Shown here one piece after another: positions 10,540 to 53,104 of a DNA stretch of 64,000 nucleotides; position 1 is the first letter of the stretch; the number at the start of each line of letters is the position of its first letter. Origin of the DNA: Arenicola marina (taxonomy: Eukaryota; Annelida; Polychaeta; Arenicolidae); assembly GCA_964019135.1 (NCBI GenBank), contig OZ025257.1, positions 15,775,971-15,839,970 on the forward strand, read 5' to 3'. The translations under genes and the position numbers were made by a program. Under the pieces are notes generated by a model, which saw only the letters and a program-made list of their open reading frames with translations, did no database searches and had not been told where the DNA came from.

Positions 10540-10715
10540 AAGCCTACTTACGTCCATGCCAACGGCGTGCGAAAATGACGTTGAGTTGCCATGGTTACTT
10601 ACCTCCGTGCAGACTGCGGGCGAACTGCTCGAACTTGGAGAATGTTAGGTTGCCATGGCTACTTACCTCCATGCAGACTGCGGGCGAACTGCTCGAACAT
10701 GGAGAAAGTCGGGAT
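10540..10715 (-). repeat. Tandem duplication of the SVEP1-like exon 1 donor region
   Basis: The last 45 or so bases of exon 1 with its GTAAGT donor (10661-10666) are repeated 64 bp downstream (GTAAGT at 10597-10602) with few changes. A more decayed third copy has GTAAGT at 10546-10551. All three contain a match to CGCAGTCTGCATGGAG or a relic of it before the donor. Confidence 0.8.
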
Positions 10716-11854: not shown

Positions 11855-12054
11855 NNNNNNNNNNNNNNNNNNNNNNNNNNNNNNNNNNNNNNNNNNNNNN
11901 NNNNNNNNNNNNNNNNNNNNNNNNNNNNNNNNNNNNNNNNNNNNNNNNNNNNNNNNNNNNNNNNNNNNNNNNNNNNNNNNNNNNNNNNNNNNNNNNNNNN
12001 NNNNNNNNNNNNNNNNNNNNNNNNNNNNNNNNNNNNNNNNNNNNNNNNNNNNNN
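11855..12054. other. Assembly gap (200 N)
   Basis: A run of exactly 200 N, a scaffold gap placeholder. It lies upstream of SVEP1-like exon 1, so promoter or 5' UTR sequence may be missing. Confidence 0.99.
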
Positions 12055-17298: not shown

Positions 17299-20200
17299 TA
17301 CGGTTGACCTGAGCGGTGAGGAATGGGAGAGTGGTGGTCGACGGGAGCGGTGAGGAATGGGAAAGTGGCGGTCGACGGGAGCGGTGAGGAATGGGAAAGT
17401 GGCGGTCGACGGGAGCGGCGAGGAATGGGAAAGTGGCGGTCAACGTAAGCGGTGAGGAATGGGAAAGTGGCGGTGGACGGGAGCGGTGAGGAAAGGGAAA
17501 GTGGTATTGGACGGGAGCGGTGAGGAATGGGAAAGTGGCGGTCGACGGGAACGGTGAGGAATGAGAAAGTGGCGGTCGACAGGAACGGTGAGGAATGGGA
17601 AAATGGTGGTCGATGGGAGCGGCGAGGAATGGGAAAGTAGCGGTCGACGGGAGCGGTGAGGAATGGGCAAGTGGCGGTCGACGGGAGCGGTGAGGAATGG
17701 GAAAGTGGCGGTCGACGGGAGCGGTGAGGAATGGGAAAGAGGCGGTCGACGGGAGCGGTGAGAAATGGGAAAGTGGCGGTCGACGGGAGCGGTGAGGAAT
17801 GGGAAAGTGGCAATCGACGAGAGCGGTGAGGAATGGGAATGTGGCGGTCGACGGGAGCGGCGAGGAATGGGAAAGTGGCGGTCGACCGGAGCGGTGAGGA
17901 ATGGGAAAGTGGCGGTCGACGGGAGCGGTGAGGAATGGGCAAGTGGCGGTCGACGGGAGTGGTGAGGAATGGAAAAGTGGCGATTGACGGGAGCGGTGAG
18001 GAATGGGAAAGTGGCGGTCGACGGGAGCGGTGAGGAATGGGAAAGTGGTGGTGGACGGGAACTGTGAGGAATGGGAAAGTGGCGGTCGACGGGAGCGGTG
18101 AAGAATGGGAAAGTGGCGGTCGACGGGAACGGTGAGGAATGGGAAAGTGGTGGTGGACGGGAACTGTGAGGAATGGGAAAGTGGTGGTGGACGGGAACTG
18201 TGAGGAATGGGAAAGTGGTGGTGGGCGGGAGCGGTGAGGAATGGGAAAGTGGCGGTCGACGGGAGCGGCGAGGAATGGAAAAGTGGCGGTCGATGGGAGC
18301 GGCGAGGAATGGGAGAGTGGTGGTCGACGGGAGCGGTGAGGAATGGGAAAGTGGCGGTCGACGGGAGCGGTGAGGAATGGGAAAGTGGCGGTCGACGGGA
18401 GCGGTGAGGAATGGGCAAGTGGCGGTCGACGGGAGCGGTGAGGAATGGGAAAGTGGCGGTCGATGGGAGCGGTGAGGAATGGGAAAGTGGCGGTCGACGG
18501 GAGCGGTGAGGAATGGGAAAGTGGCGGTCGACGGGAGCGGTGAGGAATGGGAAAGTGGCGGTCGATGGGAGCGGCGAGGAATGGGAAAGTGGTGGTGGAT
18601 GGGAGCTGCGAGGAATGGAAAAGTGGCGGTCGACGGGAGCGGCGAGGAATGGGAAAGTGGCGGTCGACGGGAGCGGTGAGGAATGGGAAAGTGGTGGTCA
18701 ACGTAAGCGGTGAGGAATGGGAAAGTGGCGGTGGACGGGAGCGGTGAGGAAAGGGAAAGTGGTATTGGACGGGAGCGGTGAGGAATGGGAAAGTGGCGGT
18801 CGACGGGAGCGGTGAGGAATGGGAAAGTGGCGGTCGACGGGAGCGGCGAGGAATGGGAAAGTGGCGGTCGACCGGAGCGGTGAGGAATGGGAAAGTGGCG
18901 GTCGACGGGAGCGGTGAGGAATGGGCAAGTGGCGGTCGACGGGAGTGGTGAGGAATGGAAAAGTGGCGATTGACGGGAGCGGTGAGGAATGGGAAAGTGG
19001 CGGTCGACGGGAGCGGTGAGGAATGGGAAAGTGGTGGTGGACGGGAACTGTGAGGAATGGGAAAGTGGCGGTCGACGGGAGCGGTGAGGAATGGGAAAGT
19101 GGCGGTCGACGGGAACGGAGAGGAATGGGAAAGTGGTGGTGGACGGGAACTGTGAGGAATGGGAAAGTGGTGGTGGACGGGAACTGTGAGGAATGGGAAA
19201 GTGGTGGTGGGCGGGAGCGGTGAGGAATGGGAAAGTGGCGGTCGACGGGAGCGGTGAGGAATGGGAAAGTGGCGGTCGACGGGAGCGGCGAGGAATGGAA
19301 AAGTGGCGGTCGACGGGAGCGGTGAGGAATGGGAAAGTGGCGGTCGACGGGAACGGTGAGGAATGGGAAAGTGGTGGTGGATGGGAGCGGCGAGGAATGG
19401 AAAAGTGGCGGTCGATGGGAGCGGCGAGGAATGGGAAAGTGGTGGTGGGCGGGAACTGTGAGGAATGGGAAAGTGGCGGTCGACGGGAGCGGTGAGGAAT
19501 GGGAAAGTGGCGGTCGACGGGAACGGTGAGGAATGGGAAAGTGGTGGTGGACGGGAACTGTGAGGAATGGGAAAGTGGTGGTGGACGGGAACTGTGAGGA
19601 ATGGGAAAGTGGTGGTGGGCGGGAGCGGTGAGGAATGGGAAAGTGGCGGTCGACGGGAGCGGTGGGGAATGGGCAAGTGGCGGTCGACGGGAGTGGTGAG
19701 GAATGGAAAAGTGGCGATTGACGGGAGCGGTGAGGAATGGGAAAGTGGCGGTCGACGGGAGCGGTGAGGAATGGGAAAGTGGTGGTGGACGGGAACTGTG
19801 AGGAATGGGAAAGTGGCGGTCGACGGGAGCGGTGAGGAATGGGAAAGTGGCGGTCGACGGGAACGGTGAGGAATGGGAAAGTGGTGGTGGACGGGAACTG
19901 TGAGGAATGGGAAAGTGGTGGTGGACGGGAACTGTGAGGAATGGGAAAGTGGTGGTGGGCGGGAGCGGTGAGGAATGGGAAAGTGGCGGTCGACGGGAGC
20001 GGTGAGGAATGGGAAAGTGGCGGTCGACGGGAGCGGCGAGGAATGGAAAAGTGGCGGTCGACGGGAGCGGTGAGGAATGGGAAAGTGGCGGTCGACGGGA
20101 ACGGTGAGGAATGGGAAAGTGGTGGTGGATGGGAGCGGCAAGGAATGGGAAAGTGGCGGTCGATGGGAGCGGCGAGGAATGGGAAAGTGGTGGTGGATGG

Positions 20201-21893
20201 GAGCTGCGAGGAATGGGAAAGTGGCGGTCGATGGGAGCGGCGAGGAATGGGAAAGTGGTGGTGGGCGGGAGCTGCGAGGAATGGAAAAGTGGCGGTCGAC
20301 GGGAGCGGCGAGGAATGGGAAAGTGGCGGTCGATGGGAGCGGCGAGGAATGGGAAAGTGGTGGTGGATGGGAGCTGCGAGGAATGGAAAAGTGGCGGTCG
20401 ACGGGAACGGCGAGGAATGGGAAAGTGGTGGTGGGCGGGAGCTGCGAGGAATGGAAAAGTGGCGGTCGACGGGAGCGGCGAGGAATGGGAAAGTGGCGGT
20501 CGATGGGAGCGGTGAGGAATGGGAAAGTGGCGGTCGACGGGAGCTGCGAGGAATGGAAAAGTGGCGGTCAACGGGAGCGGCGAGAAATGGGAAAGTGGCG
20601 GTCGACGGGAGCGGTGAGGAATGGGAAAGTGGCGGTCGACGGGAGCGGCGAGAAATGGGAAAGTGGCGGTCGACGGGAGCGGTGAGGAATGGGAAAGTGG
20701 CGGTCGACGGGAGCGGCGAGGAATGGGAAAGTGGTGGTCGACAGGAGCAGTGAGGAATGGGAAAGTGGCGGTGGACGGGAGCGGTGAGGAAAGGGAAAAT
20801 GGTACTGGACGGGAGCGGTGAGGAATGGGAAAGTGGCGGTCGACGGGAGCGGTGAGGAATGGGAAAGTGGCGGTCGACAGGAACGGTGAGGAATGGGAAA
20901 GTGGTAGTGGACGGGAGCGGTGAGGAATGGGAAAGTGGTAGTGGACGGGAGCGGTGAGGAATGGGAAAGTGGCGGTCGACGGGAGCCGCGAGGAATAGGA
21001 AAGTGGCGGTCGACGGGAACGGTGAGGAATGGGAAAGTGGCAATTGACGGGAGCGGTGAGGAATGGTAAAGTGGCGGTCGACGGGAGCGGCGAGAAATGG
21101 GAAAGTGGCGGTCGACGGGAGCGGCGAGAAATGGGAAAGTGGCGGTCGACGGGAGCGGCGAAAAATGGGAAAGTGGCGGTCGACGGGAGCCGCGAGAAAT
21201 GGGAAAGTGGCGGTCGACGGGAGCGGCGAGGAATGGGAAAGTGGTGGTCGACAGGAGCGGTGAGGAATGGGAAAGTGGCGGTGGACGGGAGCGGTGAGGA
21301 AAGGGAAAATGGTATTGGACGGGAGCGGTGAGGAATGGAAAAGTGGCGGTCGACGGGAACGGTGAGGAATGGGAAAGTGGCGGTCGACAGGAACGGTGAG
21401 GAATGGGAAAGTGGTACTGGACGGGAGCGGTGAGGAATAGGAAAGAGGTAGTGGACGGGAGCGGTGAGGAATGGGAAAGTGGCGGTCGACGGGAGCCGCG
21501 AGGAATAGGAAAGTGGCGGTCGACGGGAACGGTGAGGAATGGAAAAGTGGCAATTGACGGGAGCGGCGAGGAATGAGAAAGTGGCGATTGACGGAAGCGG
21601 GGAAGAATGGGAAAGTCGCGGTCGACGGTAGCGGGGAAGAATGGGAAAGTCGCGGTCGACGGGAGCGGTGAGGAATGGGCAAGTGGCGGTCGACGCGAGC
21701 GGTGAGGAATGGGAAAGTGGTGGGGGACCGGGAGCGGCGAGAAATGAGAAAGTGGCGGTCGACGCGAGCGGTGAGGAATGGGAAAGTGGCGGTCGACGCG
21801 AGCGGTGAGGAATGGGAAAGTGGCGGTCGACGGGAGCGGTGAGGAATGGGAAAGTGGCGGGCGACGGGAGCGGCGAGGAATGGGAATATGGCG
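17299..21893 (+). repeat. 34-bp minisatellite, about 135 units, with higher-order repeats
   Basis: Contiguous 34-bp units containing GAATGGGAAAGTGGCGG followed by TCGACGGGAGCGGTGAG, with recurring variants (GGTGGACGGGAACTGTG, CAATTGACGG). A multi-unit block marked by GGGCAAGTGGCGG then GGGAGTGG starts at about 17934, 18920 and 19668, spaced 986 and 748 bp, which is 29 and 22 units exactly. Because 34 is not a multiple of 3, all three frames cycle every 102 bp. This explains the very long overlapping open frames on the minus strand, which I do not call genes. Confidence 0.95.
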
Positions 21894-22934
21894 GCCGGTT
21901 GACATCTGTTTATATATTTTGTCTGGACCAAAGTGCTTCGTATACACACTGACGCGTTGAGAAAGAACATACCGGCTCCGTTGGCTATATGAAGTATATG
22001 CACCGGCGCTAGCTACAATCACTAAATCGTATCCTTCCTAAAGGAGGTAACCAACTTCATACACCTACCCCCTCCCTCTCTAAGGCCCTCTCGATATCAA
22101 ACCCACGAAACACACCTTACCCAGGAACTGTGTATATATCACCTACCGTCCCATACCTCCCAGGATTCCACGAAATACAGTTTTTTAACTACGCGTATCA
22201 CTTTATAGGTGTGTGTGTGTCTCGCCTACCCAGACGCTGGCGCTGATCCACCTTAAACCGCACAGCAGCCAGTGTGTGTACACCACCTTCTGACCCAGAC
22301 ACCGAGAACGTTACTGGAGTCTTTCATTCTGCATTATACTCACATAATCCTTGGGATACTGCTTATCATACCACCGAGCCATGGGGAGGCCAGAAAGGTC
22401 TCCTTACCTTTGTATAAACATCACATATGTTACGGCGAGCTCAGCCAATGGGATCTGGCGTCACAAGCGGGCTGTAATGTTTCTTCTATGCATGGACGTT
22501 ATTGAGTATAGGCGGATACTGGATAGTTTACCTATGGCTTGTCATAGACCATTCAGTTATCTAATGGGTAAATGCTAATTTTAAAATGAAAATGACAAGG
22601 CTTGTCATGAAGATTTTTATATAGACTGTACCATTATATACACCACAGAGCCGCTCACAACACCAGATTCAACCCCAGATGATTTCGGTACATGGATAAT
22701 TAGCAATTATGATAATTATCAAACAGCTAAGCCGTTATCAAGCAAGGCGCGAACTTTTGTCTTCCTTTTTTTACATTTTTTTTTTTTTTGGTGGGGGGGG
22801 GCGGTTTCGGGCACCTTGGATCCGCCTGTCGACCTACAAAAGACCGACGCAGTGAGTGGAAAGTACAGTGCTGCCTCGTAGCGGCTGACTAAAGAGCCAT
22901 TCGTCCATTGGTTCACTGGCCTCACTTCGGCTTT

Positions 22935-25499: not shown

Positions 25500-27168
25500 G
25501 TATAGGTTCAATAGGCTACGTGTTGATAATATTATATAAATTTCAATTCATCATTAATTTGAACCTTTGCATCAGGTTTGCGTATGAATGTAGAGAAGAC
25601 AAAAGCTGTACGTTTAGGAAAACCGTGGGATACCACATCTTTTACGGGCATTCCAATTGAATGGGTTAATGAATTTGTTTTGAAAAGAGAAACCTGTCAT
25701 ACAGGGGCAGAGTTACAGTTGTGAAATCTCTAGCACTACCCAAATTTGTACATGTTATGTCAGTTTTGCCTACACCAGGAAAATTTGTTTTTGATAAATT
25801 GACTAAATTGGTACGAAATTTTATCTGGAAAAGTGGAAAGGCGAAAGTCTCTATGAATAGGGTATGTCAGACTGTTAAAAATGGTGGCTTAGGTCTGACA
25901 CATATTGAATCGTTTCAGAAAGCGTTAAAAATCTCGTGGATAAACCGTATTGTAAAAACGGATGGCAAATGGCAACAACTCTTTGTGATACTATTTGCGA
26001 AGAAAGACAGTTGTGTTGGGACCTTGACCTTCAGTCACTGAAAGCATATTCTAGTGTGTCTAACCCCTTTTGGGCCGACGTGTTTAAAGCGTGGTATGAA
26101 TATAGAAAAACGGAAGAAAGCGTTAACGCAGATTTTCCCGGGTACCCTATCTGGAACTCGTACTTTGTTACAAACTATAATCTTGTGGTTAGAAAAAAAG
26201 AATTTATTCAGAAAGGTGTCATATATGTACAAGACCTGTTTGACGAAAACAGAACTTTATTGGGTTGGTCAGAATTCAGGGATCGGTACCAGATTGATGT
26301 TAACTTCGCTGACTTTTATAGCTTGATACATTCGCTTCCTCGAGAGTGGAAAGCTGTCTATGCTAAGCCTATTGATACGGAGCTTTTTATTAATACACGA
26401 ACCTGTGCATTACAGGAATTACAAAGTAAAATAAAGGTGTGCAATTTCATTTATAATAAATTAGTAATGTATCTGAAAAGGAATAATGTCAATGAAGGGA
26501 AATGGGAAAGTGAGCTAGAATGCACGTGGTCACCTGATCAATGGCAACGTCACTATGAATTGTCGTATGACGCCACGGTAAATGAAAAGCTTAGAAGTTT
26601 CCAGTTTGAGATATTGCATAGGGTGATCGCGACTAATGTCTATTTGAAAAATTGTAAGGTGAAAGACACGGATGTTTGTACATTTTGTAGTAAGGCCCCA
26701 GAATCCATCACCCATCTCTTCTGGGACTGTCCGTATGTTAAGGGTGTATGGATAGCTTTTGCTAATTGGTTAGAACCATATATACAAGTGAGTACAACAC
26801 CTTTATTGTCTATAATTAGTATAATTTTCGGGTTTTCCGACACATGGTGAAGTAGTTTACTTAATCACTTAATACCTTTTGTAAAAAGACACATTTACAT
26901 ATGTAAATGGAAAGGGAAGACACCAAACCTCCAAGTATGTCTTAGGGTTATAAAGTCCAATTATTTCACAGAGCGATGTATTGGGTACAGTAAGGGGGGA
27001 CCCAGTTTGTGTAAATTTGATAGAAAGTGGGGCCCACTCAGACCAATATTTGAATGAGCAGTTTTATGGTTTATTGTATATTTGTCAGCCTGTGCCTTGA
27101 AATATTTGTACTCGATACCTGCTGCGGATGAAATGAAATTTTAAAAAAAAAAGAAAGAAAAAAAAAAA
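25500..27168 (+). mobile_element. 5'-truncated LINE, Tx1/L1-like, with poly(A) end
   Basis: The 3' half of an ORF2. First come thumb-type RT residues (RMNVEKTKAVRLGKP), then GRVTVVKSLALPKFVHVMSV and KNGGLGLTHI. From about 25980 a different frame continues (a frameshift) through FQFEILHRVIATNVYLKNCK and the C-terminal zinc motif CTFCSKAPESITHLFWDCP. A stop at 26848 is followed by conserved-looking KWKGKTPNLQV in the same frame. The element ends in an A-rich tract at 27140-27168. It is an old, dead copy. Confidence 0.85.
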
Positions 27169-33545: not shown

Positions 33546-33957
33546 TAGCCGCGCTATCGTCAGAACGGAAGGCAAGTCGCCATCAGCCATCCACGAGTAG
33601 GCTGGCCAATAAGCCAGTGACCATGTCCATGTCAAGAACCAGCAGTATCTGTGTAACGGTATTATGGCTGCGGTCACGACGAAGATGTCCCGTTAAAACA
33701 TGGGTAGTCCGCCGCCCTTTTATATGGATTCTTCTCAAGCTTGCTGCTCCATAAGCCGGTTTGTCTGCAAGCCTGGCTAGCCTCAGCAAATATGTTTCTC
33801 CTCGAGCATGTTTCTCCGCAAGCATATGTTTCTCCGCAAGCAAGTTTTTCTACAAGCCAGGTTCTCGAGTCAGCCCGCGAGTCACCATAGCCTCTTTCTC
33901 CTCGAGCATGTTTCTCCTCAAGCCTGTTTCGCATGAGACCTGCACGTCGCCAAACCC

Positions 33958-34235
33958 TGTTTATCCTCCTCAATCATGTTTCTCCTCCTCAAGCCTGTAA
34001 ATTTCTCCTCCTCAAGCCTGTTTCTCCTGCTCAAGCCTCTTTCTCCTCCTCAAGCCTCTTTCTCCTCCTCAAGCCTGTTTCTCCTCCTCAAGCCTGTTTC
34101 TCCTCCTCAAGCCTGTTTCTCCTCCTCAAGCCTGTTTCTCCTCCTCAAGCCTGTTTCTCCTCCTCAAGCCTGTTTCCCCTCCTCAAGCCTGTTTCTCCTC
34201 CTCAATCATGTTTTTCCCCCGCAAGACTGTTTTTC
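33958..34235 (+). repeat. 19-bp minisatellite in the kinase 3' UTR
   Basis: Units of CCTCCTCAAGCCTGTTTCT, roughly 13 to 15 copies, starting directly after the stop codon of exon M on the gene's strand. The final codons of exon M contain a recognisable degenerate unit (TGTTTAAGGAGAAAACAG against GGCTTGAGGAGGAGAAACAG on the minus strand), so the array appears to have grown from or into the coding end. Confidence 0.85.
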
Positions 34236-34236
34236 C

Positions 34237-34529
34237 TCAATCTTTCTGTTTTCTCCTTAAACAGGCGAAGCAGCCCATCGACGAGCTGTTCCCATTCTTC
34301 GAGTTCCCATCGCCCTCGGTAGGGGGCGCGTACTGACATTTTGTTGCATTCTCCAGGTCTTCCAGCGTCCTCCGCAGCGAGTCGAAGGTGGGACGCCGAT
34401 TCGGGTTCTCCAACCAACACTCGCAACAAATGCTGTAAATCTGGTCACTCATCTGCGAGCGAGAATCTCGCGGCTTCTCGTGGCGGTAACCTTCGGCCAG
34501 CTTCTCCATCGTGCGTTCGTTGGTCAGCG
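34237..34529 (-). CDS. Kinase gene, exon M: kinase C-lobe end, regulatory tail and C-terminal extension
   Basis: Terminal coding exon, 97 codons including the stop, with acceptor TTTCAG at 34530. It reads LTNERTMEKLAEGYRHEKP and on, with CWLENPNRRPTFDSL (the RRPTF motif near the end of kinase C-lobes). LEDLENATKCQYAPPTEGDG follows, aligning with the Src/Lck tail around the inhibitory Tyr (ATEGQYQP in Lck), so Csk-type control is likely. Unlike Src, the protein runs on for about 25 residues as GNSKNGNSSS then MGCFACLRRKQKD. This basic, two-Cys end looks like a lipid-anchor peptide. Its last codons resemble the 19-bp minisatellite that follows the stop. Confidence 0.92.
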
Positions 34530-35566: not shown

Positions 35567-35917
<351 letters not shown>

Positions 35918-36007
35918 CTAAAACAACGGGGACTGTCATTATTATTATTACCAGTATATATGCGACTTTATATTGTTCGACTGGATGTCCAAGGCTGTGC
36001 TGGATAC

Positions 36008-36245
36008 ACATGCTATGTTGTCGTGGATACAGGACATGTTGTCGTGGACACAGAGCATGTTGTAGTGGACACACGACAAGTTGTCGTGGATACAGTATAT
36101 GTTGTCGTGGATAGAGGATATGTTGTCGTGGATACAGGACATGTTGTCGTGGGTACAGGACACGTCGTCGTGGATACAGGATACGTTGTTGTTGATACAG
36201 GACATGTTGTCGTGGATACAGGACATGTTGCCGGGAATACTTCCG
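36008..36245 (+). repeat. 21-bp minisatellite
   Basis: About 11 units built on GTCGTGGATACAGGACAT plus GTT, moderately diverged. Together with the 33-bp array it fills nearly the whole intron between exons J and K. Confidence 0.85.
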
Positions 36246-36306
36246 GACGCGTTCAACGTGCCAAATAGACAGCTCCATGCCGTCCTTCTCCCTCCACAAT
36301 ATACGT

Positions 36307-39300
36307 AGCTTCCCGACTCACCTCGCTGGCCATATAAACAGCTTCCCGACTCACCTCGCTGGCCATGTAGACAGCTCCCCGACTCACCTCGCTGGCCATG
36401 TAGACAGCTTCCCGACTCACCTCGCTGGCCATATAAACAGCTTCCCGACTCACCTCGCTGGCCATGTAGACAGCTCCCCGACTCACCTGGCTGGCCATGT
36501 AGACAGCTCCCCGACTCACCTGGCTGGCCATATAGACAGTTTCCCGACTCACCTCGCTGGCCATATAAACAGCTTCCCGACTCACCTCGCTGGCCATGTA
36601 GACAGCTCCCCGACTCACCTCGCTGGCCATGTAGACAGCTCCCCGACTCACCTCGCTGGCCATATAGACAGTTTCCCGACTCACCTCGCTGGCCATGCAG
36701 ACAGCTCCGCGACTCACCTGGCTGGCCATGTAGACAGCTCCCCGACTCACCTGCCTGGCCATGTAGACAGCTTCCCGACTCACCTCGCTGGCCATGTAGA
36801 CAGCTCCCCGAATCACCTCGCTGCTGGCCATGTAGACAGCTCCCCGACTCACCTCGCTGGCCACGTGGACAGCTCCCCGACTCACCTGGCTGGCCACGTA
36901 GACAGCTCCGCGACTCACCTCGCTGGCCATGTAGACAGCTCCATGACTCACCTCGCTGGCCACGTAGACAGCTCCCCGACTCACCTCGCTGGCCATGTAG
37001 ACAGCTCCCCGACTCACCTCGCTGGCCACGTGGACAGCTTCCCGACTCACCTCGCTGGCCACGTAGACAGCTCCCCGACTCACCTCGCTGGCCACGTAGA
37101 CAGCTCCCCGACTCACCTCGCTGGCCATGTAGACAGCTCCCCGACTCACCTCGCTGGCCATGTAGACAGCTCCCCGACTCACCTCGCTGGCCATGCAGAC
37201 AGCTCCCCGACTCACCTGGCTGGCCATGTAGACAGCTTCCCGACTCACCTCGCTGGCCATGTAGACAGCTCCCCGACTCACCTGGCTGGCCATGTAGACA
37301 GCTCCCCGACTCACCTGGCTGGCCATGTAGACAGCTCCCCGACTCACCTCGCTGGCCATGTAGACAGCTCCCCGACTCACCTCGCTGGCCATGTAGACAG
37401 CTCCCCGACTCACCTGGCTGGCCATGTAGACAGCTCCCCGACTCACCTGGCTGGCCATGTAGACAGCTCCCCGACTCACCTGGCTGGCCATGTAGACAGC
37501 TCCCCGACTCACCTGGCTGGCCATGTAGACAGCTCCCCGACTCACCTCACTGGCCATGTAGACAGCTCCCCGACTCACGTCGCTGGCCACGTAGACAGCT
37601 TCCCGACTCACCTGGCTGGCCATGTAGACAGCTCCCCGACTCACCTCGCTGGCCATGTAGACAGCTCCCCGACTCACCTCGCTGGCCATGTAGACAGCTC
37701 CCCGACTCACCTGGCTGGCCATGCAGACAGCTTCCCGACTCACCTCGCTGGCCATGTGGACAGCTCTTCGACTCACCTCGCTGGCCATGCAGACAGCTCC
37801 CCGACTCACCTCGCTGGCCATGCAGACAGCTCCCCGACTCACCTCGCTGGCCATGTAGACAGCTTCCCGACTCACCTCGCTGGCCATGTAGACAGCTCCC
37901 CGACTCACCTCGCTGGCCATGTAGACAGCTCCCCGACTCACCTCGCTGGCCATGTAGACAGCTCCCCGACTCACCTCGCTGGCCATGTAGACAGCTCCCC
38001 GACTCACCTCGCTGGCCACGTAGACAGCTCCCCGACTCACCTCGCTGGCCATGTAGACAGCTTCCCGACTCACCTCACTGGCCATGTAGACAGCTTCCCG
38101 ACTCACCTGGCTGGCCATGTAGACAGCTCCCCGACTCACCTCGCTGGCCATGTAGACAGCTTCCCGACTCACCTCGCTGGCCACGTAGACAGCTCCCCGA
38201 CTCACCTGGCTGGCCATGTAGACAGCTCCCCGACTCACCTCGCTGGCCATGTAGACAGCTTCCCGACTCACCTCGCTGGCCATGTAGACAGCTCCCCGAC
38301 TCACCTCGCTGGCCATGTAGACAGCTCCCCGACTCACCTCGCTGGCCATGTAGACAGCTCCCCGACTCACCTCGCTGGCCACGTAGACAGCTCCCCGACT
38401 CACCTGGCTGGCCATGTAGACAGCTCCCCGACTCACCTCGCTGGCCATGCAGACAGCTCCCCGACTCACCTGGCTGGCCACGTAGACAGCTCCCCGACTC
38501 ACCTCGCTGGCCATGTAGACAGCTCCCCGACTCACCTGGCTGGCCATGTAGACAGCTCCCCGACTCACCTGGCTGGCCATGCAGACAGCTCCCCGACTCA
38601 CCTCGCTGGCCATGCAGACAGCTCCCCGACTCACCGCGCTGGCCATGTAGACAGCTTCCCGACTCACCTCGCTGGCCACGTAGACAGCTCCCCGACTCAC
38701 CTGGCTGGCCACGTAGACAGCTCCCCGACTCACCTCGCTGGCCATGCAGACAGCTCCCCGACTCACCTGGCTGGCCACGTAGACAGCTCCCCGACTCACC
38801 TCGCTGGCCATGTAGACAGCTCCCCGACTCACCTCACTGGCCACGTAGACAGCTCCCCGACTCACCTCGCTGGCCACGTAGACAGCTCCCCGACTCACCT
38901 CGCTGGCCACGTAGACAGCTCCCCGACTCACCTGGCTGGCCATGTAGACAGCTTCCCGACTCACCTCGCTGGCCATGCAGACAGCTTCCCGACTCACCTG
39001 GCTGGCCATGTAGACAGCTCCCCGACTCACCTGGCTGGCCATGTAGACAGCTTCCCGACTCACCTCGCTGGCCATGCAGACAGCTCCCCGACTCACCTGG
39101 CTGGCCAGGTAGACAGCTCCCCGACTCACCTGGCTGGCCATGCAGACAGCTCCCCGACTCACCTGGCTGGCCATGCAGACAGCTCCCCGACTCACCTGGC
39201 TGGCCATGTAGACAGCTCCCCGACTCACCTCGCTGGCCATGTAGACAGCTCCCCGACTCACCTGGCTGGCCATGCAGACAGCTTCCCGACTCACCTGGCT

Positions 39301-39612
39301 GGCCATGTAGACAGCTCCCCGACTCACCTGGCTGGCCATGCAGACAGCTCCCCGACTCACCTGGCTGGCCATGCAGACAGCTTCCCGACTCACCTGGCTG
39401 GCCATGTAGACAGCTCCCCGACTCACCTGGCTGGCCATGTAGACGACAGCTCCCCGACTCACCTGGCTGGCCACGTAGACAGCTCCCCGACTCACCTGGC
39501 TGGCCATGTAGACAGCTCCCCGACTCACCTCGCTGGCCATGTAGACAGCTCCCCGACTCACCTGGCTGGCCACGTAGACAGCTCCCCGACTCACCTGGCT
39601 GGCCATGTAGAC
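36307..39612 (-). repeat. 33-bp splice-donor minisatellite, about 100 units
   Basis: Tandem 33-bp units made of the last 18 bases of exon J (coding VYMASQ) plus the first 15 of the intron (GTGAGTCGGGGAGCT), so each repeat reads VSRGAVYMASQ and ends CAG or GAG before the next GTGAGT. Length/33 gives about 100 units. Variation is nearly all single-base (Met/Val, Gln/Glu, Gly/Glu, Tyr/Cys). The two length changes I saw (near 39443 and near 36825) are both +3 bases, so the frame is kept from exon J to a stop at about 36253. The opposite strand is also open across the array, which I take as a by-product of composition. Confidence 0.93.
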
Positions 39613-39854
39613 GAGATCGTCGTACTGTAGGATGCTGCCGACCACGTCCTCCCGCAGGTAGCGCAGCAGACTGCCGTGCTTCATCAGCTCGGTCACAATG
39701 AAGACCGGCTCGTCGGAACAGATGCCGTACAGCAGTACAAGGTTCTCGTGTCGCAGGGTCTTCATCACTTCTGCCTCCTGCAGGAAGGCGGCCTTCGACA
39801 TGGTGCCTTCCTTCAGAGTCTTGATGGCAACCATGATGGACTGTTTCCAGGTAC
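39595..39854 (-). CDS. Kinase gene, exon J: kinase N-lobe to helix D, with the first splice donor of the array
   Basis: The exon is 260 nt if the first donor is used, with acceptor GAATAG at 39855 and donor GTGAGT from 39594. It reads TWKQSIMVAIKTLKEGTMSK and on. It holds the ATP-binding Lys in VAIKTLK, the helix-C Glu in FLQEAEVMKTL, the Thr gatekeeper in FIVTELM, and it ends DDLVYMASQ. Src has the same boundary after LVDMAAQ in phase 0. Past the donor the frame stays open for another 3.3 kb, because the last 18 exonic bases and first 15 intronic bases are repeated about 100 times. The normal product should use the first donor and skip the array, but any downstream unit could serve in frame. 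Confidence 0.9.
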
Positions 39855-40453
39855 CTATTCGATGGTGGAACATTTCATTAACCTTCGTAAATTAGACAGG
39901 ACTGTGAATAATCCAAATTCAGTTTGGTCTTCGGGTGCGTCTTTACGCTGCGTCATGATATCGTCATGACATGACAACAAATGATTTTGGCATTTAGATT
40001 CCTGCGTATGATTATACATGTGAAGGACAGGACATATTTTTTGTGGATGTAATATAGGCAGTCATTGTATTTAAATAGTCTACGCCATCATCCTGGAAAC
40101 ATGGTGCTTATGTCTAGAAAACCTGCAGATCTTCATCTTGTTTGTTGGGAAATTCGCCTACTGATAGGGGCCTGTATTCAAAACCCTACTTTTCGTTATG
40201 CGGAACATTTATTAAGCGTTCGTCTGGCCCAAAAGAGAAAACAATATTCAACAATTATACCCAGGAGGTTAAAAGTGCAAACATTATATTAAATACCATT
40301 GTGGGCTTATTAAGAGAGAAGCTGGAGATTATGCGATTATTCTAAATACAGATCATCTCGCAGATGAGTCACGTTCCCGCAGGCATTCTCCATACCCATA
40401 TGAAAGAAGGACATGTGATCCTTATCCTGCACAAATATAGACGTTGGCTTGGT

Positions 40454-40651
40454 GGGGCGCGAACCACCGACCTGCGGCACGACGGCAGACGTGGCAGAGC
40501 TCACGCGAAAAAAGCCGAGCGCGCCAACCACAAGACAATTCCAGCGGCTCCCAGTGGGGCGCGAACCACCGACCTGCGGCACGACGGCAGACGTGGCAGA
40601 GCTCAAGCGCACAAAACCGAGCGCGCTAACCACCAGACCATTGGGGTGACC
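40454..40651 (-). repeat. Pair of tandem tRNA-like units (kinase intron I-J)
   Basis: Two copies of a unit about 105 bp long, nearly identical over GCGAACCACCGACCTGCGGC then ACGACGGCAGACGTGGCAGA on the plus strand. On the minus strand each has an A-box-like TGGTGGTTAGCGCG and a B-box-like GGTGGTTCGCGCCCC. No full cloverleaf is apparent, so this is a SINE head or tRNA relic, not a functional tRNA. Confidence 0.55.
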
Positions 40652-41572: not shown

Positions 41573-41722
41573 ATGAATAATAGTCGACCAGCTCGGGAAC
41601 GTTGGCGAACTGTCTACTCTTGTGCAGGAAGAAGGTTCCGGTCTCACTACGGACAATGCGGTAGTTCTTGACGGTAGCTTGGCCATTGGACTCGTCCATA
41701 CGAACAGAGATGGACGTGGAAC
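41573..41722 (-). CDS. Kinase gene, exon H: second half of SH2-2
   Basis: The exon is 150 nt, the same as the Src exon, with acceptor GTCCAG at 41723 and donor GTACGT from 41572. It reads STSISVRMDESNGQATVKNY then RIVRSETGTFFL, with FANVPELVDYYS closing the domain. The strand-D position that is His in Src (VKHYKI) is Asn here (VKNYRI). Together with the Met in SH2-1, both SH2 domains have lost this His, which may alter pTyr-peptide preference. The intron between this exon and exon G contains a diverged inverted-repeat element (41882-42166). Confidence 0.92.
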
Positions 41723-41881
41723 CTGGACACAAGTAATCATTATTGTTATCAGGGTGGTCAATACGGACAGAAATGAACGTAATATCTCACCAAAATCTGA
41801 TAATTACCATAAAAAGCAACCGGTTGTTCGCCACATAAATAACACGTTATTATACATTAGAACAAGTTTTGACAGGAAACA

Positions 41882-42799: not shown

Positions 42800-44165
42800 A
42801 CCCTGTTTGTTATCCGCGTGATAGAAAGAACAGTACGTAAGCATAGACAATGTTCAATCACAAGAAGTCCTGATCTCCCGAGGAGTACCGCAGGGGTCAA
42901 TAGTTGGCCCTCTTCTATTTATAATATATATAAACGACATATCAAGAGCGAGTTCAATATTTAGTGCAATTATTTACGCTGACGATACAACCCTTTCTAG
43001 CACACTAAGTACATTAGCGCCAAAAAGTAATGTACGCCGAAGTAGTGAAGTGTTAAACCACGAACTGTCTCTAGTAAGCAATTGGCTTAAACTTAACCAA
43101 CTATCTCGAAACATTAAAAAGACCAAATTTATGTTATTTTATATGCCACAAAAGCGGGTAACGATACCGGAACTTTATATTGAAAATACCAAGCTGGAAT
43201 GCGTTGACGACTTTGATTTTCTCGGATTGAGCCTACATAAACATCTGAAATGGTCCAGTCACTGTGGTAAAATTGCTTTTAAAATATCTAAGGTAGTTCG
43301 AGTCATGCAGCATCTAAAATATACCCTTCCTCAACATATTCTGCTAACCATTTATAACTCGCTCATTTTACCTCACTTGCACTACTGCATATTAGCCTGG
43401 GGATACAAAAGTGACCGGTTGAACAAAATCCAGAATAAAGCTATTCGCATCATCACAAAGAGTCACTATATTGCGCACACTGAGCCATTATTTAAGCATT
43501 TGAATCTTCTTAAAATAGTCGACATTGATGAGTTACAGGCATTGAAGTTTTATTATAGGCTGCTGCATGATGATCTCCCTGCATATTTTATTACCTTTTC
43601 CCATTTTTCCCGTTTTTTTGACAAACATGAGTATAACACCAGATGTAAGCACAATATAATTATACCCAGAACCAGGCACATATTTGCCGAACATTGCATC
43701 CGCTATTACTTGACTCATTTAATAAACCGAACTTCAAAAAACATTTCAACGAAGATATTTACCCATTCAATAGCGGGCTACTCTACATATATAAAAAATA
43801 GACTTATTGATAGGTACTGTGTTGACTGTTTTAAAGTTAATTGTTATGTCTGCCATTATAGAGATATTGCGTTCTATATAATCCCACAAATTATTATTTT
43901 TATATCGTATGTTCTATTGAATTCTAATGGTGTCTATCGATAATTGTTTACCCAATTTGTCCTTATTGAAGTATTGTTCTCCGTTTTTTTTTGTTTTTTT
44001 TTAGGTTTTTTGGTTTTTTGCTTTCGTTTGAGGTGGCCACCATGCCAGCGACTATGTCATAATGGTGGTCTCCCCGGCCAGGGATTGTATTTTGTTCGTT
44101 TTTGCTGTTTGATGTATTGTATTGTTGTTGTTTTCCTAGTCGAAATAAATGATGATTCTCTCAAC
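42800..44165 (+). mobile_element. 5'-truncated LINE, CR1/Jockey-like, in kinase intron E-F
   Basis: RT core with RGVPQGSIVGPLLFIIYIND, the catalytic YADDTTL, then LVSNWLKLNQLSRNIKKTKF and FLGLSLHKHLKWSSH, ending in a stop at 43943. A 3' UTR follows to about 44165, ending AAATAAATGATGATTCTCTC, the kind of short-repeat end used by CR1-type LINEs. The part from about 42830 to 43943 is one open frame, so the insertion is fairly young. It is antisense to the kinase gene. Confidence 0.85.
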
Positions 44166-50299: not shown

Positions 50300-50762
50300 C
50301 TTGGAGACGAAATAAACAAAATGATGTGTTTTAGGCCACAGTTTGTAAACTTAAAGGCTAAATTGGGCCAAGATTAAAAATTGGTAATTGAGTCTCTGGA
50401 AGAATGTATCTGGATGAGTAGCTTTAATATTAGGCTTTCCATGATGGATACTTATAATGGTATGTCTATTTCGAGCCACATTGGTGCACCCATGTGGTAA
50501 ACCGCACCAAGGAATAGCACATCATAATAGCGGACAAGAGAAGCAAAAGATGTGTTGTTTCCCGGCCGTTTGTTTGTTCGCACGTGGGCCAAATCTCGCC
50601 GCAAGAGATTTGACACCGAGCGACCACGTGACGGCGATGCTACCCACGTGACTATATGACGTCTGGAAGATATATGCGCGCAACGTGTCACTATTAAACA
50701 AAAGTTGTGCGTTGATAGACGGTATCCTGTGTCAGGTAGAGCGGTTTGGGCGGAATGCTTAC

Positions 50763-50899
50763 CTTGTTGACGGTCACTTTCCCGAACCAAGTAACTTCCG
50801 GAGGGATACTGGGGGTCCATAAGAATTTTCCTGACGGCATCTTTCGGCAATTTGCCGTGGTACCAGTCGAACTGGGTAAGGTCCACTGGACTAGGTACC
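50763..50899 (-). CDS. Kinase gene, exon C: first half of SH2-1
   Basis: The exon is 137 nt, with acceptor TTATAG at 50900 and donor GTAAGC from 50762. Phases agree with both neighbours. It reads VPSPVDLTQFDWYHGKLPKD and on through SYLVRESDRQQ. The WYHGKL start and the phosphotyrosine-binding Arg of the YLVRES (FLVRES) motif are both visible. The second basic pTyr contact at the start of helix A appears to be Lys and not Arg. A 17-bp minisatellite begins immediately upstream of the acceptor on the gene's strand, and the acceptor sequence itself resembles a degenerate unit. Confidence 0.88.
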
Positions 50900-50904
50900 C
50901 TATA

Positions 50905-51190
50905 ATAGAGCATGAATAGAGCACTCGTATATAGCGAGCACTCGTTCATAGCGACCACTCTTTCATAGCGACCACTCGCTCATAGCGACCAATCGTTCAT
51001 AGCGACCAATCGTTTATAGCAAGCACTCGCACATAGCTACCACGTGTACATAGCGACCATTCGTATATAGCGACCACTCGCTCATAGCGACCAGCCGATC
51101 ATAGCGACCACTCGTTCATAGCGACCACTCGTTTATAGCGACCACTCGTACATAGCAACCACTCGCTCATAGCGACCACCCGTATATAGC
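50905..51190 (+). repeat. 17-bp minisatellite abutting the SH2-1 acceptor
   Basis: About 16 units of CATAGCGACCACTCGTT with variants (CACATAGC, TATATAGC). It starts within a few bases of the exon C acceptor at 50900. On the gene's strand the acceptor tract (GCTCTATTATAG) looks like a decayed unit. Confidence 0.8.
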
Positions 51191-51402
51191 ACTATAGTGT
51201 AAGCATGCAATTAAATACCGTCGACCGCAAAATTAATTTAATTTATAAACTTACAAATAAGCTGTCTGTACCCCAAATTATCATTGGGTATAGCGTTTAT
51301 TTCCGTCGCTCGTAGAATTACAGTCAATTGTTAAAGTATTATATGAAGCATCGAATTACAAGCTCGTAACTGTTAGTGAAACGATACCCAGAAGTAACTT
51401 AC

Positions 51403-51522
51403 GTTGGCTTTGGTATCTCGACTTCCACAAAGTTGTTGGGTATCTCGACTTCCACAAAGTTGCTGGGTATAAGGCCCTGGTTCCCTGACGTCAGACACAC
51501 CACCATCCACCAATCGGTCGAA
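51403..51522 (-). CDS. Kinase gene, exon B: second half of SH3-1 with a 9-residue internal duplication
   Basis: The exon is 120 nt, with acceptor CTCCAG at 51523 and donor GTAAGT from 51402. The codon shared with exon A gives Asp. The residues include DWWMVVCLTSGNQG then LIPSNFVEVEIPN, so the SH3 tryptophan pair and the ALIPSNYV-type end are present. A 27-nt segment coding NFVEVEIPN is repeated at once as NFVEVEIPK. Without it the exon would be 93 nt, close to the 99 nt of exon F and of Src. The duplication extends the end of SH3-1 just before the SH3-SH2 linker and stays in frame. It lies within 10 nt of the donor, one of several tandem duplications at exon edges in this gene. Confidence 0.85.
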
Positions 51523-52264
51523 CTGGAGACCACAGAGAGAACATCCGCGAATCAAAACGCACAACACCAATAGACAGTGACATCGTCTTAACCCGCATAT
51601 GTTTTATTCTCGCACAAATTACAGAAAGATTTCCTTAACATCTTGGGGAGGGGGTGGGGGGGGGGGGGAGGGGGGGCACTATCAAACTGGTGGTGGTGGG
51701 GGGAGGGGATTCTCTAGACGCCCAGTAATGCCTCATTGAGAGCGGACATTTTTATGCCAAATATATCCCTATGGAGCGGATGTTTTTCATAAGTAACGTA
51801 CCCATTCAGAAATCAAATATTCATAAAGTTACCCCCACAGAACTGACATTTCTCCAGCGAACCCAGCAATCTATCTGGGCTCAGTATATTATTGCTTTAT
51901 TCATGCCAAGCTCCCGTTCGCTAGCTGGCGTTTCGTGCCTCCACTCTGACTATCGGCCGGGAGCAAATGTCAACGTTCTTGTTAAAACGGCCAAAAGTGA
52001 ACTATTATTTCTTGCACAATTATACTCTTCAGAAATTAACATAGAAGGAACGAACCGTGCGTAATTGATACAACAACATACTAGGTGTAATATTTTGAAA
52101 AAAGGTGATAATTGAGAGCGTATTATTTCTTTTGTTAACCTGATAGTGTGTGTTATTAGGCATAGGGAGGTTCCCGTCACGGAGATTGTAGAAATGCGCG
52201 GCGTATTGGTCCTATGAATTCGCGAAGTGCCGCCCTGGCGATTGGTTGGTTGTATATTCAGAAC

Positions 52265-52500
52265 GCTTCAAACATTTTTGGTCATATCGCGTCAATGGGA
52301 GAAAGAAGGGCAGAGCGGAGCCGTGTCCCCGGGGGTAAACCCCTACTCTTTGCGAAGAAGGACATGGGATCTTTAGCCTGCGACCACACAGACAGGGCGA
52401 CAGCGGGGCTCGAACCATCGATCCACGTGCCGTTAGGCTCTCAGGTGGCGCGATCACTCAATGTGAGCGCTCTACCACCTTGCCGAGCGGGTGTGCCAGT
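52265..52500 (-). mobile_element. tRNA-derived SINE, copy 2 (kinase intron A-B)
   Basis: Same head and body as the element at 4628-4875: GGTGGTAGAGCGCTCACATTG (start), GGTTCGAGCCCCGCTGT, then GGGGACACGGCTCCGCTC on the minus strand. It is diverged from copy 1 and is oriented with the gene. Confidence 0.78.
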
Positions 52501-53007
52501 GGACTGAGGAAGTAGACGTCCATCTCGAGACGGCCCTAGATTTAACGTAGCCCCTTGCGGAGTGAGTCGAAGGCAGAGAGTGGAATCATACAAGATGGCG
52601 CGGGTGTTGGCGCATCACACGTCGCATGGCCCATAGATACAACTAAACTTGATATTCGACTGTTACAGCGTTACAGCGACTAACTTGCAAATGATATTTA
52701 TAATAAAATTGTACCCCACAGCTAGTTAGCTGGATAGCCGGAATTCATCAGTACACGGTTTCGAGGAAATGTGAGTTCCTGATAATGTGAGACGATTAAT
52801 CTCTCTCCGCCTTCGATTCATTTTTGCCGCGCATTTCTATACGTCAGTGCCGGGGACCTCCATATGCATAAAAAAAAAACGATATCAGGCGACCCCAAAA
52901 AAATAGTTCGCTCTCAGTTCTCTCTTCTTCAAATGGTACACTGAGTATATTGCTGTATTAAATACATCAAGTCCATGCGTTAGACTAATAATGAGGAAGT
53001 CACTTAC

Positions 53008-53104
53008 TCTTCGAGGACTCTAAAGCGGTCGTTCTTCTTGAAGCTGAGGTAATCTATGTTGTCGCCGCCGGTGTAATCACATTTTGCGGTAACCAGTTTG
53101 GTAC
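53008..53104 (-). CDS. Kinase gene, exon A: first half of SH3-1
   Basis: The exon is 97 nt, with acceptor TTCCAG at 53105 and donor GTAAGT from 53007. It completes a codon with 2 nt, reads 31 residues and ends on 2 nt. The residues run TKLVTAKCDYTGG then DNIDYLSFKKNDRFRVLE. This is the RT-loop half of an SH3 domain: the ALYDY position is TAKCDY, followed by the DLSFKKG-like YLSFKKND. Src has a 100-nt exon at the same place. It is the first recognised exon. The preceding exon must end in phase 1 and was not found between here and 64000. The flanking intron contains a SINE copy at 52265-52500. Confidence 0.85.

Follow-up and report, generated by a model that had tools for sequence, protein, structure and literature searches.

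How does a gene keep its exons in order when the 5′ splice site of one of them is repeated about a hundred times in succession? The question is raised by a 64,000-nt stretch of the genome of the polychaete Arenicola marina (assembly GCA_964019135.1, contig OZ025257.1, positions 15,775,971 to 15,839,970 of the forward strand), referred to here as the window and numbered from its first base. On its minus strand, a gene predicted to encode a Src-like tyrosine kinase carries 100 tandem copies of one of its own exon–intron junctions. Tandem repeats over exon–intron boundaries have been described in amphioxus under the name of mirages (PMC3087553 and PMC3902484, accessible portions). The reading favoured here, at a probability of about three in four, is that the array is a neutral minisatellite derived from a junction duplication, and that its transcript is spliced at the first donor by proximity across the exon.

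A first-pass annotation, made from the sequence alone, had proposed about 100 tandem 5′ splice sites, each in a unit made of 18 exonic and 15 intronic bases. Tandem Repeats Finder (TRF) delimits the array at 36307-39612 (period 33, 100.0 copies, 94% matches). Parsing of the minus strand gives 100 units; 98 measure 33 bp, and the other two each contain a 3-bp insertion. The units consist of the final 18 bases of a tyrosine-kinase exon (exon J) and the initial 15 bases of its intron, kept in register, with the consensus GTCTACATGGCCAGC(G/C)AG^GTGAGTCGGGGAGCT, where ^ marks the junction. The exonic 18 bases of unit 1 (39612-39595) are the predicted end of the kinase exon, and parse and prediction together bear out both the number and the anatomy of the units. 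There are 29 distinct unit types, with a mean pairwise identity of 94.1% (3-bp insertions set aside), and the longest exact repeat inside the array covers 162 bp at a lag of 12 units, which fits repeat turnover. Units with CAG at the junction cluster toward the exon, making up 14 of the 16 closest to it, and at position +11 of the intron a G-to-A variant is frequent toward the far end; a drifting array would be expected to show such gradients. A viral sequence collection contained no exact match to the unit.

The loss of GT from most units was named in the first-pass annotation as an observation that would speak against it, but GT stands at the donor position in 100/100 units. The full motif (C/G)AG^GTGAGT is present in 97/100; the donor 9-mers are 58 GAG^GTGAGT, 39 CAG^GTGAGT and one each of GCG^GTGAGT, GAC^GTGAGT and GAG^GTGATT. 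Exact matches to [ACG]AGGT[AG]AGT number 100 on the minus strand of the window and 0 on the plus strand; 97 lie in the array, two in a duplication in a gene with a VWA domain (see below) and one elsewhere. The duplex energy computed for pairing with what we take to be the 5′ end of U1 is −12.2 kcal/mol in CAG units and −10.8 kcal/mol in GAG units, in agreement with the earlier description of the sites as near-equal; the three deviant donors give −9.4, −6.8 and −5.8 kcal/mol on the same assumed U1 sequence. Masking of the extra donors by RNA structure was not detected in the 206 nt formed by the last 40 nt of the exon and units 1-5, which fold no better than shuffles (z = +1.37; 184/200 shuffles equally or more stable). 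A scan of the window for known RNA families gave none reaching its gathering score.

The gene around the array has exon edges that are predictions from sequence. Exon J matches the tyrosine kinase family PF07714 (E 6e-21), and five predicted exons joined together give a 300-residue sequence with VAIK, HRD and DFG motifs (PF07714, E 4e-90). Comparison with solved structures places this sequence among Src chains, which occupy rows 2 to 39 of the best 60 of 2710 distinct matching sequences (one labelled only tyrosine-protein kinase); row 1 is taken by an EGFR construct, which matches over two stretches. Parts of an SH3 domain and of an SH2 domain lie upstream of the kinase exons. When donor 1 is joined to the next exon (exon K), the alignment with Src runs through LVYMASQ^IANGMAY with no gap at the Q^I junction. 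By this gap-free match the array is placed as a tandem repeat with a junction-spanning unit, in a predicted Src-like tyrosine kinase, and it falls within the predicted catalytic domain, where the first-pass annotation had put it. The junction presumably falls in the helix called alpha-E. By eye, the donors of exon K (GTACTT) and of the following exon L (GTACGT) look weaker than the repeated donor.

In the favoured reading, a tandem duplication of the junction would have been followed by growth to 100 units through ordinary repeat turnover. Splicing would join donor 1, the donor closest to the acceptor of exon J, 260 nt upstream, while U1 would bind the remaining 99 donors no more than transiently and these would leave with the intron. 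The array would thus be tolerated because splicing uses the first donor, and as neutral baggage its growth would merely lengthen the intron. The ground for expecting donor 1 is a rule stated in the accessible part of PMC9225289: when near-equal 5′ sites compete and the flanking introns exceed 250 nt, the site nearer the exon's own acceptor is favoured. Five minigenes, each with a pair of identical CAG/guaagu sites and with flanking introns of 365 nt, were spliced only at the upstream site of the pair (PMC9225289). Those minigenes resemble the array in having equal strong donors on one exon with both introns >250 nt, but they carried two designed sites 52 nt apart, whereas the array presents 100 natural sites 33 nt apart, with two steps of 36 nt. 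The predicted introns flanking exon J measure 907 nt upstream and 3677 nt downstream, and the latter would still be 404 nt long with donor 100; recognition would therefore be across the exon, and the rule predicts donor 1. Use of donor 1 and neutrality of the array thus appear probable from the analysis.

Several points weigh against this reading. In the same portion of PMC9225289, the downstream site prevailed in ∼60% of all human 5′-site events before any filter for equal strength. Among events whose two exon forms were both longer than 250 nt, likewise without that filter, the share preferring the upstream site was 44%; donors 1 and 2 give exons of 260 and 293 nt, both above that length. 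The proximity rule was established on pairs of donors in human genes and cells (PMC9225289), far fewer than the 100 present here. Repeated signals could serve as cryptic sites, as the globin paper itself points out in its accessible part (PMC3087553). Finally, a preference of arrays for junctions is not shown by overlap counts in the window, since 2 of the 14 junctions checked lie inside arrays, vs ∼3 by chance, arrays making up 23.3% of the window.

The likeness to amphioxus mirages suggested by the first-pass annotation agrees with what the available text of PMC3087553 and PMC3902484 describes. In Adh3, BflGb6 and BflGb9, as here, the unit combines an exon edge, the splice signal and adjoining intron in an otherwise normal gene, and mirages of Adh3, globin and troponin C genes are reported there as leaving splicing undisturbed. 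The unit numbers described in these portions range from 2 to 7: BflGb6 has 6 and 3 units of 150-160 bp on two haplotypes, on the acceptor side, BflGb9 has one duplicate, and Adh3 units measure 10-72 bp (PMC3087553). The present array differs by its 100 units of 33 bp, with 97 consensus donors, all in an open frame. In lancelet PGBD5, repeats likewise lie over splice sites, and units there had been annotated as an exon, which the authors left out; they differ from the array in being imperfect and few, a 60-bp unit being present 2 or 7 times and a 108-bp unit 3 or 6 times according to which assembly is consulted (PMC3902484, accessible part). The intron-gain model of PMC3087553 (Fig. 7 legend), in which repeated junctions offer spare splice signals for a new exon or intron, shares the repeated junctions with the array; the array, in contrast, repeats only donors, its unit is without a polypyrimidine tract (by eye) and a new exon is not apparent. 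Titles and abstract openings among the matches listed from the open-licence literature report no mirage of such size. As far as these portions of the sources go, the array is a large case within an already described class; the earlier view of it as exceptional holds for size (100 units vs the described 2 to 7) and is not supported for kind.

What is new here is that every one of the 100 donors leaves the kinase frame open. Joined in turn to exon K, the donors give 100/100 products in frame and stop-free, with lengths between 300 and 1391 aa. Unit and insertions alike have lengths divisible by three, and the exon frame stays open through the array. Nonsense-mediated decay (NMD) should therefore not hide the use of wrong donors. 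This suggests an alternative in which several donors are used, yielding in-frame, NMD-escaping kinases with 11, 22, 33 or more extra residues in the catalytic domain, possibly inactive or differently folded forms. The restriction of length variants to two 3-bp insertions and the near-equal computed U1 pairing of the 97 consensus donors favour it as well. However, a shuffled 33-mer of matching composition leaves a given frame open with probability 0.66, and three of the six frames through the array are stop-free. Among 19 distinct array variants, 6 are synonymous against 25.8% (4.9) expected, no clear excess, and no variant creates a stop, an outcome with a chance probability of 0.61. The open frame of the array is therefore not evidence of coding. 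The extra residues would moreover enter the conserved LVYMASQ^IANGMAY stretch and would likely break the fold. Use of several donors is accordingly an unlikely account. Its stronger form, an NMD-immune series of kinases differing by multiples of ∼11 residues in a mixture set by the repeat number of the allele, is highly doubtful. The array was also considered as a coding repeat and rejected for want of a clear synonymous excess, because 3/6 frames are stop-free and because the kinase does not require an insertion. The 6/19 synonymous variants (25.8% expected) lend no support to purifying selection on the repeated peptide, although events are few.

A very unlikely alternative gives the unspliced donors a role of their own, as a platform that recruits U1 and so blocks premature polyadenylation, slows or retains the RNA, or titrates U1. 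U1 can suppress premature polyadenylation, and the consensus donor is kept in 97/100 units, which leaves only three of the window's 100 such matches outside the array. Donor positions, however, are not clearly depleted in variants relative to the rest of the unit (4 events within the donor 9-mer observed vs 5.2 expected), so that homogenisation explains the conservation of the donors, and one gene would be unlikely to titrate U1. The same count (4 vs 5.2) leaves selection for keeping the donors unsupported. The donor-damaging variants are three, few events, each confined to one unit. With variant counts near expectation on both scores, there is no sign of constraint on the peptide or on the donor copies.

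A further alternative, that a real junction repeat was inflated or scrambled during assembly, is very unlikely. Long minisatellites are often misassembled, but an assembler duplicating a single block would hardly be expected to leave 29 types of unit in mixed order, with no exact internal repeat above 162 bp. Precedents for such errors appear in the accessible parts of the amphioxus reports, where a globin mirage looked aberrantly assembled in a draft genome (PMC3087553) and two assemblies disagreed on the repeat numbers of PGBD5 (PMC3902484).

Table 1. Features of the array, of the kinase gene around it and of the second junction duplication, in window coordinates (^, splice junction)
Feature	Position	Strand	Basis
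Junction-spanning (mirage) array: 100 units, each of 18 exonic + 15 intronic bases (33 bp), two of them longer by 3 bp	36307..39612	−	TRF and unit parse
Unit 1: exon end and first 15 intron bases	39580..39612	−	Unit parse
Unit 100: last copy, single-copy intron beyond	36307..36339	−	Unit parse
Uninterrupted frame, exon J and whole array: 1212 codons, repeat VSRGAVYMAS(Q/E)	36253..39891	−	Reading-frame analysis
Kinase exon J (260 nt): N-lobe to LVYMASQ, ends at first donor CAG^GTGAGT	39595..39854	−	Pfam and Src alignment
Predicted intron (3677 nt): donor 1 to acceptor TTGTTTTAG^ATTGCC	35918..39594	−	Predicted splice sites
Kinase exon K: HRD and DFG motifs	35764..35917	−	Prediction and Src alignment
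Second mirage: 64-bp duplication over the donor of a VWA-domain exon	10580..10707	−	TRF and junction comparison

Repeats of junction sequence in other introns, which the first-pass annotation had put forward for a genome search, were looked for within the window, to which the scan was confined. Twenty junctions, chosen by eye and some of them approximate, were compared with their flanks on both sides (40 comparisons). Two results stand out, the donor of a VWA-domain exon (z 39.3) and the donor of exon J (z 38.8); one acceptor-side comparison reached z 6.5 and the other 37 stayed at z 2.5 or less. In the VWA gene, whose exon is recognized by Pfam with E 2.9e-25, the last exonic base is 10667 and its counterpart in the copy 10603, with GGAG^GTAAGT in both, and the 64-bp copies are 91% identical. 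A third, decayed copy lies further into the intron and matches the second at 33/44 bases, as counted from the printed alignment alone. Extension of the VWA exon into its repeat runs into a stop at once, and an open frame is therefore not general among mirages. That a second mirage occurs in this window would agree with a general tendency of the genome to form them. A candidate on the acceptor side, at 41698-41806 (minus strand), may be a decayed copy, ∼64 bp away, of the start of an SH2 exon, in the intron upstream of that exon; its score was reached by 1/500 shuffles and is the third best of the 40 comparisons, which is suggestive only of an acceptor-side mirage remnant.

Other repeats accompany the kinase gene. 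A minisatellite of 21 bp × 10.3 lies in the intron of the array (36015..36230, TRF), one of 19 bp × 14.7 (33956-34238) abuts the predicted kinase stop codon, and a repeat of 102 bp × 1.9 (40452-40642) occupies the intron preceding exon J. Upstream of the SH3 and SH2 parts of the kinase itself, 50455-53102 (minus strand) holds a further SH2 exon and a weak SH3-like stretch under the Pfam cut-off, perhaps a neighbouring or duplicated gene. Elsewhere in the window, a minisatellite of 34 bp × 134.8 extends over 4.6 kb (17311-21894) with minus-strand open frames of up to 1489 codons, the plus strand has open frames related to reverse transcriptase at 25909-26850 and 42825-43943 (Pfam zf-RVT and RVT_1), and a run of N covers 11855-12054.

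Provided that the sequence is correct, 100 donors in one gene, spaced ∼33 nt apart and fitting the consensus in 97 cases, constitute a natural test of 5′ splice-site choice, on a scale beyond the two competing sites of the published minigenes (PMC9225289, accessible part). As every choice is in frame and without a stop, and NMD would spare minor products, complementary DNA could show donor preference by position. Alleles with other repeat numbers would vary the lengths of exon and intron. A preference among donors along the array would help to explain how junction mirages persist without harm to the genes that carry them.
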